A stretch of DNA of 63,915 bases from Candidatus Aminicenantota bacterium (GTDB lineage: Bacteria > Acidobacteriota > Aminicenantia > JAMOAD01). The position numbers and the translations under genes were made by a program. Below, in pieces: positions 1,835-56,349 of the stretch; the stretch's first letter is position 1; every line of letters starts with the position of its first letter. A model generated the notes under the pieces. The model saw only the letters and a list, made by a program, of their open reading frames with translations. It searched no databases and was not told the origin of the DNA. The DNA lies in NCBI GenBank assembly GCA_027067555.1, contig JAMOVU010000009.1, positions 1 through 63,915 on the forward strand, read 5' to 3'.

Positions 1835-3130
1835 CTAAATATCTTTAAATCTCCTAATGTAAGATTCTATCTCTTTTTCAAAAGCACTATCACTTTCCAT
1901 TTTGCTTTGAATCTTATTTATTGAGTGGAGAACAGTTGAATGATGTTTGTTTCCGAACTCTTTTCCTATTTTATTTAGGGGCATATCAATAATTACTTTC
2001 AGGAGATACATAGCTATTTGTCTTGGAAAAGAAACTCTCGGAGAATTGTTTTTTGAGCTTAATTCATTTACTTTTACTCCATATTTTTCAGCTATAAAAT
2101 TCTTTATTCTTTCGGGTGTTACTTCTTCTTTGTTTTCATCAACATAATCTTTTATCTCTTCTCTAACAAGCCCTATTGTTATGGGAATACCTCTTATAGA
2201 GGCAATAGCTCCTATTCTTGAAAGCGCTCCCTCAAGTGTTCTGACATTTCTCTTTATTTTTGATGCTATATATTCAGCTATATCTTTTGTTATAGGGATA
2301 TTTTTTTCTCTTGCTTTTTCCATAAGAATTGCAATCCTGTTTTCAAGATCAGGAGGTTCTATCTGAGCTATTATTCCCCATTCAAAACGGGATCTTAATC
2401 TTTCCTCCAATTTTTTTAAATCTTTTGGTGGGCAATCGCTTGAAATTATTATTTGTTTATTTGCTTCGTAAAGTTCATTAAAAATAAAGAAAAGTTCTTT
2501 TTTAGTAGCTTCCCATGTAGACATAAGTTGTATATCATCAATTATCAAGATATCAGCATTTTTATATTTATTTTTGAATTCCGTATATTTTTTGTTTTGA
2601 AGATGATAAACCATTTCATCCATAAAATCCTTTGAGCTTTTAAACATTACATTTTTACTTTTGTCGTTTTTTAAAATATAGTTTGCTATTGCTGTTAAAA
2701 GGTGTGTTTTTCCGAGGCCGACATCTCCGTAAATATATACAGGGTTATAGTTAGATTCTCCCTTTGCAACGCTATAGGCGACAGCGAATGCAAATTTGCT
2801 TCCCTCCCCCGGAATAAAATTGTCGAAAGTATAATTTTCATTTATATTTGGATATTTGGTTGAAGAAACTTTTTTTCTCTTACCTTTTTTTGCTTCGGGA
2901 TAAATAAATCTTATTTTCAGGTTTGGGTCATAGCTTATGAGCAGGGAGTTAATGAGGTCTATGTATTTTCCTTCTATAAAGGAAAAGAAATTTGAGTCGG
3001 GAACTTTTAGATAGAGCTCATTTTCATCAGTTCCTATGAATTTTATTGGTGAAATCCAGAGATTATATTCTCTTTCATCTTTAATTGTTTTCTTTAGCTC
3101 TTCTTTAATTTTAGTCCATATAGATTCCAT
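1835..3130 (-). CDS. dnaA: Chromosomal replication initiator DnaA
   Basis: DnaA binds DnaA boxes at oriC and opens the duplex as an ATP-bound filament. The protein is 431 residues: an N-terminal DnaB/DnaA-interaction domain (about 1-80), a short linker, an AAA+ domain with Walker A GDVGLGKT (135-142) and Walker B ILIIDD (194-199), and a C-terminal helix-turn-helix with the signature NKHHSTVLHS near residue 394. The start has a GGTGG ribosome binding site seven bases upstream. A strong promoter and a DnaA-box-like palindrome lie directly upstream, suggesting autoregulation. Confidence 0.97.
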   Translation of the reverse strand: MESIWTKIKEELKKTIKDEREYNLWISPIKFIGTDENELYLKVPDSNFFSFIEGKYIDLINSLLISYDPNLKIRFIYPEAKKGKRKKVSSTKYPNINENYTFDNFIPGEGSKFAFAVAYSVAKGESNYNPVYIYGDVGLGKTHLLTAIANYILKNDKSKNVMFKSSKDFMDEMVYHLQNKKYTEFKNKYKNADILIIDDIQLMSTWEATKKELFFIFNELYEANKQIIISSDCPPKDLKKLEERLRSRFEWGIIAQIEPPDLENRIAILMEKAREKNIPITKDIAEYIASKIKRNVRTLEGALSRIGAIASIRGIPITIGLVREEIKDYVDENKEEVTPERIKNFIAEKYGVKVNELSSKNNSPRVSFPRQIAMYLLKVIIDMPLNKIGKEFGNKHHSTVLHSINKIQSKMESDSAFEKEIESYIRRFKDI

Positions 3131-3146
3131 TAGATTTCCACCTTTT

Positions 3147-3164
3147 TTTCCACAATTGTGGAAA
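3147..3164. promoter_or_regulatory. 18-bp palindrome of two DnaA-box-like halves
   Basis: The site TTTCCACAATTGTGGAAA is a perfect 18-bp palindrome. With one flanking T (3146-3154) the left arm reads TTTTCCACA, one base from TTATCCACA and a match to the relaxed box TTWTNCACA. The right arm is its mirror image with a mismatch at the outer base. It sits just downstream of the dnaA -10, across the expected start of transcription, where bound DnaA would repress its own gene. It may also be part of oriC. Confidence 0.55.
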
Positions 3165-3168
3165 TCTT

Positions 3169-3197
3169 ATTTTATATATTGAAAGCTATGTTGTCAA
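3169..3197 (-). promoter_or_regulatory. dnaA promoter
   Basis: On the minus strand the region reads TTGACA (3192-3197), a 17-base spacer, then TAAAAT (3169-3174). That is a perfect -35 and a 5/6 -10 at optimal spacing. The predicted start is near 3162, inside the DnaA-box-like palindrome, with a leader of about 30 bases carrying a GGTGG ribosome binding site. Confidence 0.75.
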
Positions 3198-3261
3198 GGA
3201 GTTATTAGTTTTGATAAAAAAGCATTTATTTGAAAAATATATTTCTTAGTATAAAATTTTT

Positions 3262-3271
3262 TTGCTATAAT
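3262..3271 (+). promoter_or_regulatory. dsbD promoter (extended -10)
   Basis: TTGCTATAAT contains a consensus TATAAT (3266-3271) with an upstream TGC extension. The -35 at 17-base spacing is weak (TTCTTA). It is divergent from the dnaA promoter in the same 171-base gap and gives a leader of about 24 bases that includes an AGGAG site. Confidence 0.55.
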
Positions 3272-3301
3272 AGAACTTCAAAAAGTTTAGGAGATTTAAA
3301 G

Positions 3302-4927
3302 ATGATAAAAAGGATTTTAATGGTACTATTTTTGTCTCTTTTTTCGGTAACCCTTCTGGCTGAAGGTATGAAGACTGTTTCTAAAAAGATTTACAGGGAA
3401 AAAGAGAAGGTTAAGTTCCTTCTTGAGTTCGAAATTCCACCAGGTCTTGATATTTCAGATGTAGATAAAGATCTAAAAGTAAAAGTGAAGGAGAAAGTAT
3501 TTTCAATTGAGAATATCAAAAAGGATAAAGTAGATTTTGGACATATAAAAAATATTGAAATTAAGGGAGACATTCAGATAAATGATAAAGAGGGGTTTAA
3601 TAAAAGGAGCATAACATTTATTATAGATTATGAGCTTTGTGACCCAATAACTAAAGCGTGTATGGTTTCTGAGAAAAAGGAGATAGAGGTCAGGTACGAC
3701 TTTTCCAAGTTGAAGAAGAAGTCATTCAATTTTTTGTCTCTTGTTTTACTGTTTCTTTCGGGAATAGCGACATCTTTTACACCTTGTGTTTTTCCACTTA
3801 TCCCTCTTGTTTTCGGTTTTATAGGTGCGACGGGAAAAAACCCTAAAAGAGCACTTGCCCTTTCTTCAACAATGGTGCTCTCGATGGGAGTTGTTTATTC
3901 TGCTCTTGGTGTTTTTGCCGCTCTTTCCGGGAAAGTGTTCGGTTCATTAACTAAAAGCCCTGGTTTTCTTGTGGGAGCAGGCATGATAATGGTTTTGATG
4001 GGGGTTTCTCTGATGGGATACTTACCATTTAAAACACCCTCTTTTGTTTCAAAGGGAATGAGAACATATAAGGGGAAAGGTTTTCTTTCAGCTATAACGA
4101 TGGGACTTTTCCTTGGAGCTATCGGTGCTCCATGTGTTGGTCCTGTTCTTGTTTCAGTTTTAACATATGTTTCAACAACTCAGAATGCTCTGGTGGGTGC
4201 TCTCATGTTGTTTTCATACTCAATGGGAATAGGATTAATTTTTGTAATTATAGGAACACTTTCTCAAAGCCTTGGAAAGAGTTTTTCTCAGGGAAGATGG
4301 ATGGAGTCTTTAAAGAATTTTTTCTCTCTCTTAATTATAGGAGGGGGTTTTTATTTTATGGGTATGGGACTCAAGACAAACCTCTTAATTTACGTTTTTC
4401 TTCTATTTGTGGGCTTGTGGATAATAAAAGAGTCTTTTAAGGTTGAGGGAAAAGTTGTGAAAGGCAGTCTGATTCTGATTGCAATTCTTACGATTGCTGT
4501 TCCCTCTTACAAATTATATAATGTAATACACCATCACGGAGGCAAAATTTTCGGGGGTAAGGGTGTAGTTGGATGGGAGAGTTCTTACAAAGGGGCTTTA
4601 GAGAAGGCAAGTAAAGAGAAGAAAATTGTTTTTATAGATTTTTACGCTGATTGGTGTGAGAATTGCCATAAGCTTGAGAAGTCGGTGGAGAAGGTCTATC
4701 CGGAGGTGAAGAATAAGGTAGTATTTTTGAGAATAAACATGGAGTCTCAGGATAAGGTAAAAGAGAGTTTAGTTAAGAAATACAATATAGTCGGCCTTCC
4801 GGGAGTTGTTATGGAGTGCCCTGAGGGACAGGAAATAGGCTCGTTTTTTGGATATAAGGATGAGAGTTCTTTAAAAGAGATTATAAGAAAAGCTATAGAA
4901 GATAGTAGTAAAAGGTGTGGAGGTTAA
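3302..4927 (+). CDS. dsbD: Thiol:disulfide interchange protein DsbD
   Basis: DsbD carries electrons from cytoplasmic thioredoxin across the inner membrane to periplasmic thiol proteins. The 541-residue protein has a signal peptide (1-20), an N-terminal alpha domain with a cysteine pair (C113, C120), an eight-helix beta domain with the two redox cysteines in TPCVFP (C162) and GAPCVGP (C278), and a C-terminal thioredoxin-like gamma domain with CENC (C452, C455). An open frame continues 24 codons upstream, but the chosen ATG has an AGGAG site and begins the signal peptide. A thioredoxin gene follows after one base, its natural electron donor. Confidence 0.93.
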   Translation: MIKRILMVLFLSLFSVTLLAEGMKTVSKKIYREKEKVKFLLEFEIPPGLDISDVDKDLKVKVKEKVFSIENIKKDKVDFGHIKNIEIKGDIQINDKEGFNKRSITFIIDYELCDPITKACMVSEKKEIEVRYDFSKLKKKSFNFLSLVLLFLSGIATSFTPCVFPLIPLVFGFIGATGKNPKRALALSSTMVLSMGVVYSALGVFAALSGKVFGSLTKSPGFLVGAGMIMVLMGVSLMGYLPFKTPSFVSKGMRTYKGKGFLSAITMGLFLGAIGAPCVGPVLVSVLTYVSTTQNALVGALMLFSYSMGIGLIFVIIGTLSQSLGKSFSQGRWMESLKNFFSLLIIGGGFYFMGMGLKTNLLIYVFLLFVGLWIIKESFKVEGKVVKGSLILIAILTIAVPSYKLYNVIHHHGGKIFGGKGVVGWESSYKGALEKASKEKKIVFIDFYADWCENCHKLEKSVEKVYPEVKNKVVFLRINMESQDKVKESLVKKYNIVGLPGVVMECPEGQEIGSFFGYKDESSLKEIIRKAIEDSSKRCGG

Positions 4928-4928
4928 A

Positions 4929-5249
4929 ATGAGCAAATATTTAATTAAGGGTGATGAGTTAAAGAAATATCTTGAAGAGGAAGAAGTTGTGCTTGTGGAT
5001 TTTTCAAGCCCTTTTTGCGCTCCCTGTAAAAAAGTCCCACCTATTTTTGAGGAGTTGGAGGGGGATTTTGGAGAGAGAGTGAGCTTCTTAGAGATAAATG
5101 TGGCTGAGGACAATGATCTTGCTCTAAATTATGATGTGTTTTCAGTTCCCACGATCATTGTTTTTAAAAAAGGAGAGGAGAAAGAAAGAATCTCCGGTGT
5201 TCCCAATAGAAAAAAGTTGTCTTCTGTTTTAAATAAGCTTATTTCCTGA
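4929..5249 (+). CDS. trxA: Thioredoxin
   Basis: This small cytoplasmic dithiol protein is 106 residues with one thioredoxin fold. The active site is CAPC (C30, C33) in a SSPFCAPCKK context, against the usual WCGPC; the Trp is replaced by Phe and Gly by Ala. A cis-Pro region (SVPTIIVFKKG) follows. GGAGG overlapping the dsbD stop is its ribosome binding site. Being next to dsbD suggests it is the cytoplasmic donor for that membrane protein. The altered active site may shift its redox potential, which is inference. Confidence 0.88.
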   Translation: MSKYLIKGDELKKYLEEEEVVLVDFSSPFCAPCKKVPPIFEELEGDFGERVSFLEINVAEDNDLALNYDVFSVPTIIVFKKGEEKERISGVPNRKKLSSVLNKLIS

Positions 5250-5260
5250 TATTCTTTTAT

Positions 5261-6445
5261 ATGGATGAGTTTTTAAAGGCAACTCTTCTTATAGTCTTTT
5301 TCATTCTCTTCTCTTTTGCCGCTTCTAAGCTTTTTGTAAGAAGAGAAAAGGAAAGTTTTTTATACTTTTTGGGGGTGACAGGGGAGCCTTTCGTGATTAT
5401 AGGAATTCTTTTCTCTTTTCTGATAAAGAGAATCTTTCCCCCTGGTAAAGCTCTGGAAATCTTTGCTCCCTTCATGATAGTGATAATAGCGTTTGTTGGT
5501 TTCTTGTATGCGAGTAATTTTGTCGTAAAGTATATCAGGGGATTGGAGGTTAAAAACCTGATTTATGTCTTTCTATTTTTTGCTCTCTCCTATTATGGAG
5601 CCTTCTTTATGCTTGATGCAGGACTTAAGGCCTTTTTTGGAGGATGTACAATAGTTGTGGGTGACTTAAAGGTTTTGGCTCTGTCGGTTACTTTATTTTC
5701 TCCTTTTTTCCTTTATATGGAGAAAAAGGAAGGGGATGGAAAGAAAGAGCATTCTCTGACGCTTTTCATCTCATATTTTTCATCCTTTTTTGCGATAATT
5801 TTTTTCGGGTTTCTCTTCTATAGAGAGAGGGTAATAAGGATAGAAACTTTCTCTATAAAGCTCTCCTTTCTGCTTTTTGGTATAATTCTTTTATTATCAG
5901 TAAGTCTTTTCTCCCTTTTGTCTTCGAAATTAAAAAGGGAGGAAGTTATGACTTTAAGTATTGGCATCCTTGCTATAGCGGGAGGAATGGCTGTTTTCAC
6001 CACGACGAGCATTATCACTATTGCTGCGGTTTTGTCCTTTTTGTATGTAAATATGCCTTATAGAATAAAGGAATTTAAACTTATCCCGCACCTTCTTATG
6101 TTTGAAAAACCTGTTTTTATTCTTCTTTTACTTCTTACCCCTATGTTTTTGTTTAAAGTAGAGGGATTTCAGATTTTTAAAATAGGGATACTTCTTGTTT
6201 TTATAAGATTTTTCCTGAGAGCGATTTTTATTCTGTTTTTAAGAGTATTAAAAAGAGATATAAGTTTTGGAGCTCTTCTCCCTTATGGGCCTTTACCTCT
6301 TGCAATCGCTGTTTCATATTTTTTCATTGTGGGAGAGGGTAGCTCAGTTGTGGTGGGGAGCTTGATTATCTCTCAATTGTTAGGGGATTTTTTAAGTTCG
6401 CTTTACTTTTTTTATAGCAGGAAAAGAGGTGCGGTGGAAAAATGA
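5261..6445 (+). CDS. Polytopic membrane protein, degenerate CPA-type antiporter-like
   Basis: The 394-residue protein has about ten to twelve hydrophobic segments. Late segments resemble the second half of CPA antiporters: a stretch ending VNMPYRIKEF recalls the 'agl.lsn.pyr' motif, followed by a 'pifFi.vG'-like helix and a GALLPYGPLPLAIA stretch. I find no acidic pair or Asp in the transport core, so it may be inactive alone. It overlaps the next gene, a fuller antiporter, by four bases, suggesting a two-subunit transporter. No ribosome binding site precedes the ATG; TGATATTCT six bases upstream could be an extended -10 for a leaderless start. Function is not established. Confidence 0.6.
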   Translation: MDEFLKATLLIVFFILFSFAASKLFVRREKESFLYFLGVTGEPFVIIGILFSFLIKRIFPPGKALEIFAPFMIVIIAFVGFLYASNFVVKYIRGLEVKNLIYVFLFFALSYYGAFFMLDAGLKAFFGGCTIVVGDLKVLALSVTLFSPFFLYMEKKEGDGKKEHSLTLFISYFSSFFAIIFFGFLFYRERVIRIETFSIKLSFLLFGIILLLSVSLFSLLSSKLKREEVMTLSIGILAIAGGMAVFTTTSIITIAAVLSFLYVNMPYRIKEFKLIPHLLMFEKPVFILLLLLTPMFLFKVEGFQIFKIGILLVFIRFFLRAIFILFLRVLKRDISFGALLPYGPLPLAIAVSYFFIVGEGSSVVVGSLIISQLLGDFLSSLYFFYSRKRGAVEK

Positions 6446-54702: not shown

Positions 54703-54731
54703 TTGCAAGCCTGAGGTTTTTCCTATAAAAT
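54703..54731 (+). promoter_or_regulatory. Promoter of the DHH-like gene, leaderless
   Basis: TTGCAA (54703-54708), 17-base spacer, TAAAAT (54726-54731). Only five bases separate the -10 from the ATG and no ribosome site is present, so translation would be leaderless. Confidence 0.5.
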
Positions 54732-54736
54732 AATTA

Positions 54737-55786
54737 ATGCCTATTGAAAAATTTGAGTTTGTGGATTATGGAGAAGAGCTTTTTCCTCAGGAAGGTACAA
54801 TAATTGTTGATGTAGGGAAAAAACTTGAAGAGGGGATTTTAGATCACCATCAGCCTGATGCAGAAAATGAGTGTGCTGCCACCTTGGTAGTAAAACATCC
54901 CGAACTTATTCTAAATCACCTGAAAGGGGGAAAAAGTTTCAGACTGATAACCCATCGTTATCCTGATTTTGATGCTGTTTCATCTGCGTTTTTAGTTGAA
55001 AAAGTTGTGGAAAGAGGAAAAGTGACAAATTCAATGAAAAAAATTGCGGAATACGCCAAGGTTGTTGACTCCTCCAACCTTCCTCCCTCCATTCCTCTTG
55101 AAGATACTCCCTACGCTGTTCTATACTCGATGTTTCATCAGATAAATTATGACAGGGGAACCAATCAAAAGAATAAGGTAGATTTTATAGGAGAAAAGAG
55201 AATGAAAATAGGGTTTGAGCTTTTAACAAGACTTGAAGAGCTTGCTGAAAGAGGAGAGGATATTTTTACTGCAATGAGATTAATGTCCGGATACAGAGAT
55301 TATGAAAGAGCAAGGAAAAATATTTTTGAAGATTATAAAAATTATTTAACAGATACTATGAGGGCTTCTACAGGAGAGATAGAGCTTTTAACAAATGATG
55401 GAAAAGCTCTTAAAAAGGTTGACTATTTTTTTATTATAAACCCCTCTTCTTATCTTTTAAAGGACTGGATAAAAAGAGATTATACAAATTCACCTTCAAA
55501 AAGAGGTTTTTCTCTTTTAATGAGTTCTCTTTATCCGGGAAATTTCATAATTGCAACATCACCTTCTTCAGGTACCTATTTAAAAGGCCTGGGTGAAATT
55601 TTAAACAGAGTGGAGAGAGAGAAGAGAGAAGAAGCGAAGAAGCCAGTGGCAGAGTGGTACAAGGGGGATTCTCCTTTTTTTAATTACAGAATAGTTGCAA
55701 GTCCGAGTGATGGAACCGTGCTTACGAAAGAGGAAGTCATATCCTGTTTTAAAGAATACCTTGAAGCAATTAAGAAACTTGTTTAA
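54737..55786 (+). CDS. DHH-family-like phosphoesterase with motifs in swapped order
   Basis: The 349-residue soluble protein has IIVDVGKKLEEGILDHHQPD (DHH at 36-38) first and then ITHRYPDFDAVSSAFL (73-80 for the HxxPDxDA motif). In ordinary DHH phosphoesterases the second motif comes first. The DVG...DHHQ pattern also recalls MYG1/UPF0160 proteins. Residues 230-350 have no recognised domain, with a SPSSGTYLKGLGEI stretch. It overlaps a YgjP-like peptidase gene by one base. A phosphoesterase or nuclease role is plausible, not shown. Confidence 0.6.
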   Translation: MPIEKFEFVDYGEELFPQEGTIIVDVGKKLEEGILDHHQPDAENECAATLVVKHPELILNHLKGGKSFRLITHRYPDFDAVSSAFLVEKVVERGKVTNSMKKIAEYAKVVDSSNLPPSIPLEDTPYAVLYSMFHQINYDRGTNQKNKVDFIGEKRMKIGFELLTRLEELAERGEDIFTAMRLMSGYRDYERARKNIFEDYKNYLTDTMRASTGEIELLTNDGKALKKVDYFFIINPSSYLLKDWIKRDYTNSPSKRGFSLLMSSLYPGNFIIATSPSSGTYLKGLGEILNRVEREKREEAKKPVAEWYKGDSPFFNYRIVASPSDGTVLTKEEVISCFKEYLEAIKKLV

Positions 55787-56349
55787 TGAAAAAAGTAAAA
55801 ATAGAGGGGATTGAATTTAATATTCTTTTTAAAAATGTTAGATATTATAGGCTGAGTTTTGAAGAAGGTCTCTTTTATCTCACGCTTCCGAAAACTTTTC
55901 CTGAAGGAAAAATAAAAAATTTGATAATAAAACACAAAAGATGGGCAAAAAACAGATTATTGGAGTATAAAAAGATTAAGGAATTAGAAAAAGGAGAGGT
56001 TATTTATCACAGAGATGTTTTTGATTTTGAGAATATGGTTTTATCTATTTTAAAAGAGGGAAGCAAAAAAATGGGCGTACATTTTAATAATATTAAATTC
56101 AGATATATGAAATCAAGATGGGGTAGCTGCTCTTCTAAGGGAAACATAAGTATTAATAGGTATTTAATGTTTTTTCCCTATGAATTAATTGAATATGTTG
56201 TTTACCATGAGCTTGCTCATCTTAAGTATAAAAATCATGGAAATGGGTTTAAAAATTTTTTGTCAAAGTATCTTCACGATTGGGAAAGGAGAAAAAAGGA
56301 ACTTAAACTTTGGGGGCTTCTTCTAAAAGAGAGAAAGTTTATCCCTTGA
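55786..56349 (+). CDS. YgjP/DUF45 family zinc metallopeptidase
   Basis: The 187-residue protein has the central KSRWGSCSSKGNISINRYLMF block and YHELAHLKYKNHGNGF with the HExxH zinc motif and third His, as in YgjP and SprT-like proteins. Its substrate is unknown. It starts one base before the stop of the DHH-like gene and its stop overlaps the nnr promoter. Confidence 0.88.
   Translation: MKKVKIEGIEFNILFKNVRYYRLSFEEGLFYLTLPKTFPEGKIKNLIIKHKRWAKNRLLEYKKIKELEKGEVIYHRDVFDFENMVLSILKEGSKKMGVHFNNIKFRYMKSRWGSCSSKGNISINRYLMFFPYELIEYVVYHELAHLKYKNHGNGFKNFLSKYLHDWERRKKELKLWGLLLKERKFIP

Follow-up and report, generated by a model that had tools for sequence, protein, structure and literature searches.

The window analyzed here, by which we mean the whole stretch of 63,915 nucleotides, carries on its forward strand the gene of a 349-residue protein in which the DHH triplet comes ahead of an HxxPDxDA motif, the reverse of the order usual in DHH phosphoesterases. 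The locus thereby raises the question of whether such a protein may represent a permuted branch of the DHH fold, as a preliminary description of the sequence had supposed, and, if so, what reaction it might serve. In the following we argue that the permuted architecture of the family is well supported, and we lean towards regarding the protein as a permuted DHH/DHHA1-like phosphoesterase with a frequent link to base excision repair. These are the features on which the argument draws.

54703..54731, + strand: promoter-like TTGCAA-17-TAAAAT, from a consensus scan; TTGCA and TATAAAATAAT are kept in 3 of 3 aligned congeners
54737..55786, + strand: gene of the predicted permuted DHH/DHHA1-like phosphoesterase, 349 aa
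54806..54817, + strand: motif II, VDVG, residues 24-27, MYG1-like, with D25 invariant
54842..54850, + strand: motif III, DHH, residues 36-38
54953..54976, + strand: motif I, HRYPDFDA, residues 73-80, shifted to after DHH; sub-cut-off Pfam DHH match and NrnA profile match
55067..55069, + strand: candidate motif IV, D111 in YAKVVDS, invariant in 47 of 47 sequences and assigned by its position
55322..55771, + strand: putative DHHA1-like C-terminal domain, about residues 196-345, from VIA-align of the AlphaFold model
55786..56349, + strand: gene of a YgjP-like metallopeptidase, 187 aa, PF01863, translationally coupled

Motif order and conservation of the putative metal site

The reversed order, with DHH at residue 36 and HxxPDxDA at residue 73, is borne out both by the open reading frame itself and by a comparison with the canonical NrnA proteins of the host class, which put HxxPDxD approximately 84 residues before DHH. 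The linear order II(25)-III(36)-I(73)-IV(111) is found in all aligned members of the family. In the alignment from which conservation was read, comprising 47 distinct family sequences (two matches shorter than 300 residues were retained, and one sequence is without some of the N-terminal columns), D25, G27, D36, H37 and H38 are identical in the 46 members that cover those columns, and H73, P76, D77, D79, Y106 and D111 are identical in all 47. Judged by these residues, the ligand set of the DHH two-metal site, motifs I to IV, is complete in the rearranged family, with D25 as the presumptive motif II and D111 as the presumptive motif IV, both assigned from position and context. For comparison, the site of Bacillus subtilis NrnA is given as H20, D24 and D26, D80, H103/H104 of DHH, and D156 (PMC5593865), residues whose allotment to motifs I, II, III and IV, respectively, is partly our own, and that of Deinococcus radiodurans RecJ as D79/D81/D83, D135, D158-H159-H160 and D223 (PMC4846377).

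The same invariance bears on the idea that the protein might be a dead enzyme of the DHH superfamily, Cdc45-like or regulatory in nature. Cdc45 chains do stand among the top rows of the VIA-align comparison described below, but Cdc45 is reported to have lost three ligands (PMC4846377), whereas all of them are invariant here, and we regard a dead enzyme as very improbable. The gene is under purifying selection, with a dN/dS of 0.06 against locus L022 of the same genus.

As to its expression, the mRNA of the DHH-like gene is probably leaderless, to judge from the sequence ahead of the start codon. The spacing from the -10-like element to the ATG is about 5 nt, and a TTGCA...TATAAAAT...ATG block is kept upstream of the gene in 3 of 3 aligned congeners; the promoter consensus scan taken alone, on the other hand, barely exceeds shuffles (11 found against a mean of 6.4, s.d. 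2.9). The leaderless start proposed in the preliminary description is plausible.

Profile comparisons and predicted fold

The search for an already described family, which the preliminary description had suggested, gave none: neither in Pfam nor in NCBIfam does any family exceed its cut-off for the 349-aa protein. The best NCBIfam score is 13.6 bits, for a Mn-pyrophosphatase model, the PHROGs search gives 13.2 bits and PADLOC gives none, and a sequence search of the PDB arrives at DhhP without significance (E 0.28 with the single sequence, 0.87 with the profile). Positions 4-29 of the Pfam DHH model PF01368 align with residues 70-102 (E 0.0032; 18.2 bits, below the cut-off of 28.1 bits); at E<=1 PF01368 matches 14 of 17 family members, with a best E of 1.7e-4.

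Taken block by block, residues 1-62 pair with the region around DHH in both the NrnA and the RecJ profile, while the counterpart of residues 63-118 is the motif I region of NrnA; in each case none of 60 column shuffles reaches the score. Against the RecJ profile residues 63-118 show no excess over shuffles (20 of 60 reach the score), nor does the score of the C-terminal segment exceed shuffles with either profile. The permutation was also undone artificially, by placing columns 64-97 or 63-94 in front and comparing local profile scores: with NrnA there was no gain (29.7 in the natural order, 26.2 after the move), with RecJ the scores were equal (26.8 and 26.8), the moved order giving a longer alignment in which motifs I, II and III are all included, and with the pair of MYG1-like proteins introduced below there was no gain (38.9 natural, 38.3 moved), 57 of 60 shuffled-segment controls reaching the moved score. 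One block dominates local profile scores, and this test speaks neither for nor against a permutation.

The remark in the preliminary description that the first motif recalls MYG1 proved apt, since the block VDVG...DHH(Q/H)...CA.SLV.(K/R)H finds a match in L131, a protein of MYG1 type from another Acidobacteriota genome: over motifs II-III, segment 19-54 is identical to it at 14 of 36 positions (BLASTP E 0.006 for that single comparison), and hhalign of the II-III block yields a probability of 55%. L131 itself scores 40.9 bits with PF03690 over the first 64 profile positions, and in both L131 and a second such protein, L132, a separate motif I stands towards the N-terminus, as is usual. MYG1-like proteins of this kind are rare, being present in 2 of 396 genomes (L131 at 1471-2358, + strand; L132 at 874-2163, - strand); they match PF03690 over the first 65 or so positions only, with normal motif order and a differing C-terminal part. 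MYG1 has been described as a 3'-5' RNA exonuclease, and the shared block might suggest that the protein, too, is an RNA exonuclease, a rearranged relative of MYG1 with RNA 3' ends as its target. Such a reading is improbable, however, in view of the facts that PF03690 has no match to the 349-aa protein at E<=10 and that motif I has the form HxxPDxD, as against HPGGAHKDD or HGGPAHRDE in MYG1-like proteins. In the window's genome no protein scores above the PF03690 cut-off.

Towards the C-terminus the family alignment contains no GGGH motif. Where DHHA1 proteins carry it, as judged by eye, there is a G-x-x-L-[RK]-G-L-G stretch, and position 283, whose equivalence to GGGH was likewise judged by eye, is R or K in 43 of 46 members, H in two and E in one. 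The conserved C-terminal end, WYxGxxxxF...RI..SP.DG, is particular to the family.

AlphaFold2 models of the DHH-like protein were built from four sequences, with a pLDDT of 68 and a pTM of 0.57 for the whole protein and of 75 and 0.78 for residues 1-212 alone. The modelled chain begins with a strand (3-9) and a second strand (21-24) that holds motif II, passes over a short bridge to DHH at 36-38 and through two short helices, and continues with a strand (68-73) at motif I, a helix (78-93) and a helix (98-110) ending at D111, past which there are helices only, up to a strand at 211-219. Since no strand lies between motif I and residue 211, a canonical DHH domain cannot be finished downstream, which leaves the N-terminal part as the source of motifs II and III.

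With the whole model, the best Foldseek matches are GdpP structures with 5'-pApA or c-di-GMP (E 0.012-0.020). The domain-only model finds nothing significant (best E 1.0, to an unrelated protein), an outcome that could be expected if a sequential aligner is faced with a rearranged domain. Among the 50 VIA-align rows listed for the whole model, 43 belong by title to the DHH superfamily (RecJ, Cdc45, NrnA, PDE, GdpP, DhhP, exopolyphosphatase, PPase and DHH proteins), with a best Z of 8.7, and residues 196-345 superimpose on the C-terminal domains of NrnA-type proteins, GdpP and PPase with Z 5-7 and an rmsd of about 3-4 A over 95-110 residues. For the domain alone, 1 of 999 aligned chains reaches Z 5 (6mtz, Z 5.8) and the RecJ/Cdc45 rows give Z 3.2-4.2 over 128-145 residues; the D. 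radiodurans RecJ alignments start at chain residue 99, which lies behind motif I (79-83) and ahead of motif II (135), as would be expected if the domain is permuted. These Z values support a DHH fold and do not prove it, since they lie within the range that the tool calls common.

On the evidence taken together, a DHH fold with all motifs gathered in one two-metal site is probable. The notion that the motifs share no common site, their resemblance being fortuitous and the fold another one, would sit well with the lack of any curated family above cut-off and with a domain-only Foldseek search devoid of significant matches; it is hard to reconcile with a full and invariant four-motif ligand set, with profile matches reached by 0 of 60 shuffles and with VIA rows dominated by the DHH superfamily, and we hold it to be quite unlikely. 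The supposed permuted branch of the DHH fold is made probable by four-motif conservation, by the block-by-block profile matches, by the MYG1-like match of the II-III block and by the DHH-superfamily matches of the model. As for the structure prediction that the preliminary description had recommended, DHH proteins are prominent in the VIA rows, and from a model of moderate confidence, with Z values in the common range, we infer that the motifs meet.

Distribution of the family and its genomic neighbors

A search with the single sequence detects the DHH-like protein in 20 of 60 relatives and in 10 of 199 genomes of the host phylum, and a profile of 17 sequences finds more: of 396 genomes in the phylum 21 have the family, and of 142 in the host class 51. 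A genome-contig scan for which the window protein was the only query, and which distant relatives in other phyla could escape, returned three loci, all from Aminicenantes, the nearest MAGs being 79% identical in this protein, in keeping with the window's origin from a Candidatus Aminicenantes bacterium; sequence searches of plasmids, phages and viral contigs gave no match to the family. One genome outside the host class contains it (G116; E 2.2e-17, 28% identity), and there the DHH-like part lies inside a 910-aa protein, flanked by a Ser/Thr kinase, PF00069 (E 3.2e-43), and a TIR domain, PF13676 (E 1.2e-9), a fusion that looks like a signalling or defence protein. The gene of this protein, from another Acidobacteriota class, is at 2960-5692 on the - strand of locus L026 (G116:C138) and has a hybrid histidine kinase and a TonB-type outer-membrane protein as its neighbors.

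The recurrent neighbor of the DHH-like gene is a cluster with the HhH-GPD and NUDIX_4 domains of MutY, for which TIGR01084 gave 291.9 and 307.5 bits against a cut-off of 286.5 (2 of 19 members scanned). In 16 of 33 neighborhoods a gene of this cluster directly precedes the DHH-like gene in the same orientation, with an overlap or a gap of up to 227 nt (several of these genes overlap the DHH-like gene by 4 nt), and the 16 span five families of the host class; three more neighborhoods have MutY on the same strand at a distance of up to 2.2 kb, and it is absent near the gene in the other 14. A co-occurrence table was moreover compiled by hand, MutY being defined as a NUDIX_4 match within an open frame of 250 aa or more. 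Both genes are present in 23 genomes, and in 21 of these they share one contig and strand within about 2.5 kb; in the two exceptions the DHH-like gene is close to a contig end, which lies 473 bp (G472) and 328 bp (G476) upstream of it. A 24th genome (G415) has MutY in the neighborhood comparison and is missing from the NUDIX_4 rows. No such MutY is found in 27 of the 51 genomes bearing the DHH-like gene, and many MutY-bearing genomes are without the latter. The window's own genus has no clear MutY, and the best Nth/MutY-like match in the window's genome is 28% identical with two stops in the alignment, so that the DHH-like protein works without MutY there. This match (L137; G000:C87:7007-7579), the only sizeable one, is possibly a broken gene or else an alignment running past the frame.

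The coupling to a YgjP peptidase, on which the preliminary description had laid weight, involves an overlapping reading frame that is real: it shares 1 nt with the DHH-like frame (TAATG) and matches PF01863 (E 8.8e-37; 127.6 bits, cut-off 26). The emphasis itself is unsupported, as YgjP lies downstream of the DHH-like gene in 2 of 33 fetched neighborhoods (L022 and L023) and in the window, all of one genus, while MutY recurs in five families; YgjP was accordingly rejected as the main functional partner, and its link to the DHH-like gene is incidental, that of an ordinary neighbor. The YgjP-like gene evolves faster, with a dN/dS of 0.26 versus 0.06 between the window and L022.

Other neighbors may be mentioned for completeness. 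A cluster of DUF4340, ABC_transp_aux and ABC-2 membrane genes, which we take to be a gliding-type ABC transporter, lies upstream of MutY and the DHH-like gene in many genomes (L053, L056, L120, L121, L127 and others); common as they are there, these genes have no obvious link to it and were set aside as partners. In one genus, a gene for O6-methylguanine-DNA methyltransferase, another repair neighbor, is convergent to the DHH-like gene (L056, 8915-9403, - strand, where it was identified; L127, 6159-6677, - strand, of the same cluster).

The main rival to the processing of repair ends is the hydrolysis of signalling nucleotides, in which a permuted DHH phosphodiesterase would act on c-di-NMP, pApA, pGpG, pAp or other short nucleotides in the manner of GdpP, DhhP and NrnA, and would have no direct role in repair. 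GdpP provides the best Foldseek matches of the full model, the distant homologue has a protein kinase fused to one side and a TIR domain to the other, and in 4 of 33 neighborhoods a GAF-GGDEF gene is immediately upstream on the same strand. All four, however, belong to one genus, as opposed to the five families in which MutY is the neighbor, and an NrnA-type protein is already present in the genome; we therefore consider this alternative possible and, on balance, doubtful.

Proposed function and relation to known DHH proteins

The mechanism that we favor for the permuted phosphoesterase supposes that the strand-helix unit of motif I has moved from the N-terminus to after DHH, thereby giving the order II-III-I-IV, and that H73, D77 and D79 (motif I), D25 (II), D36-H37-H38 (III) and D111 (IV) would form the usual two-metal (Mn/Mg) site; the DHHA1-like domain at the C-terminus, which has a conserved end of its own, would hold the substrate. 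Catalysis on phosphodiesters would be likely for such a protein. RecJ, itself a DHH enzyme, is reported to serve long-patch base excision repair, with a preference for ends resembling 5'-dRP (PMC7515722); taken together with the MutY linkage, this makes repair-end processing our first hypothesis. MutY would take out the A opposite 8-oxoG, the abasic site left behind would then be cut, and the DHH-like enzyme might trim the 5' end at the cut site, as RecJ does in long-patch repair, its most likely role thus being phosphodiester hydrolysis at DNA ends downstream of the glycosylase. The assignment to repair is a tentative guess from gene order. Since the window's genome also encodes RecJ-, NrnA- and pyrophosphatase-type DHH proteins, named by size and Pfam match, the substrate is likely to be a special one. 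We may also conjecture, with similar reserve, that the family combines a II-III block of MYG1 type with a motif I block of NrnA type, the motif I strand being inserted after that of DHH. It would then be the first rearranged enzyme of the DHH superfamily, one that joined MutY in an operon as a dedicated nuclease for end-processing in the excision repair of oxidized bases and that was, on a separate occasion, taken up into the kinase-TIR protein of signalling or defence.

The strand order 21345, of five parallel strands, is stated to be common to all DHH family proteins (PMC4846377), and a conserved family with another motif order would break this rule and show the two-metal site to survive the move of a strand. 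Searches of open-licence PMC papers on permuted DHH, on MYG1/UPF0160, on MutY with DHH, on DHHA1/RecJ/NrnA and on RecJ with abasic sites turned up no report of a rearranged DHH domain. Profile searches miss the rearranged family because it falls below the Pfam DHH cut-off, and other members of this sort could have escaped notice in the same way. Linkage to MutY, for its part, gives a direct and testable class of substrates in an uncultured lineage.

With the NrnA/DHH-DHHA1 nanoRNases (B. subtilis NrnA, TM1595 and DhhP) the family shares the HxxPDxD motif I, DHH, the Asp of motif II and the Asp of motif IV, a size of about 320-350 aa and, by predicted fold, a putative DHHA1-like C-terminal domain; it differs from them in its II-III-I-IV order, in having no GGGH by eye, in its own C-terminal end and in a Pfam DHH match that stays below the cut-off. 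MYG1/UPF0160 (PF03690), together with L131 and L132, has the VDVG...DHH..(C)A.(S)LV block of motifs II-III in common with it, but here motif I is of another form and follows DHH, and PF03690 does not match. RecJ, with archaeal RecJ and Cdc45, has the same two-metal ligand set, save that a His stands here for the first Asp of motif I, and, by predicted fold, a similar helical linker and C-terminal domain; motif order and size are different, and the window's genome has a separate RecJ-type protein. The catalytic domain of GdpP (DHH-DHHA1), which has the canonical motif order, is the best Foldseek match of the full model, at E 0.012. We do not file the protein under canonical DHH-DHHA1, NrnA, RecJ or MYG1, because it departs from all of them in motif order and from MYG1 also in the Pfam match; the best-supported reading is rather that it is predicted to work like the DHH enzymes, with their motifs in a rearranged order.
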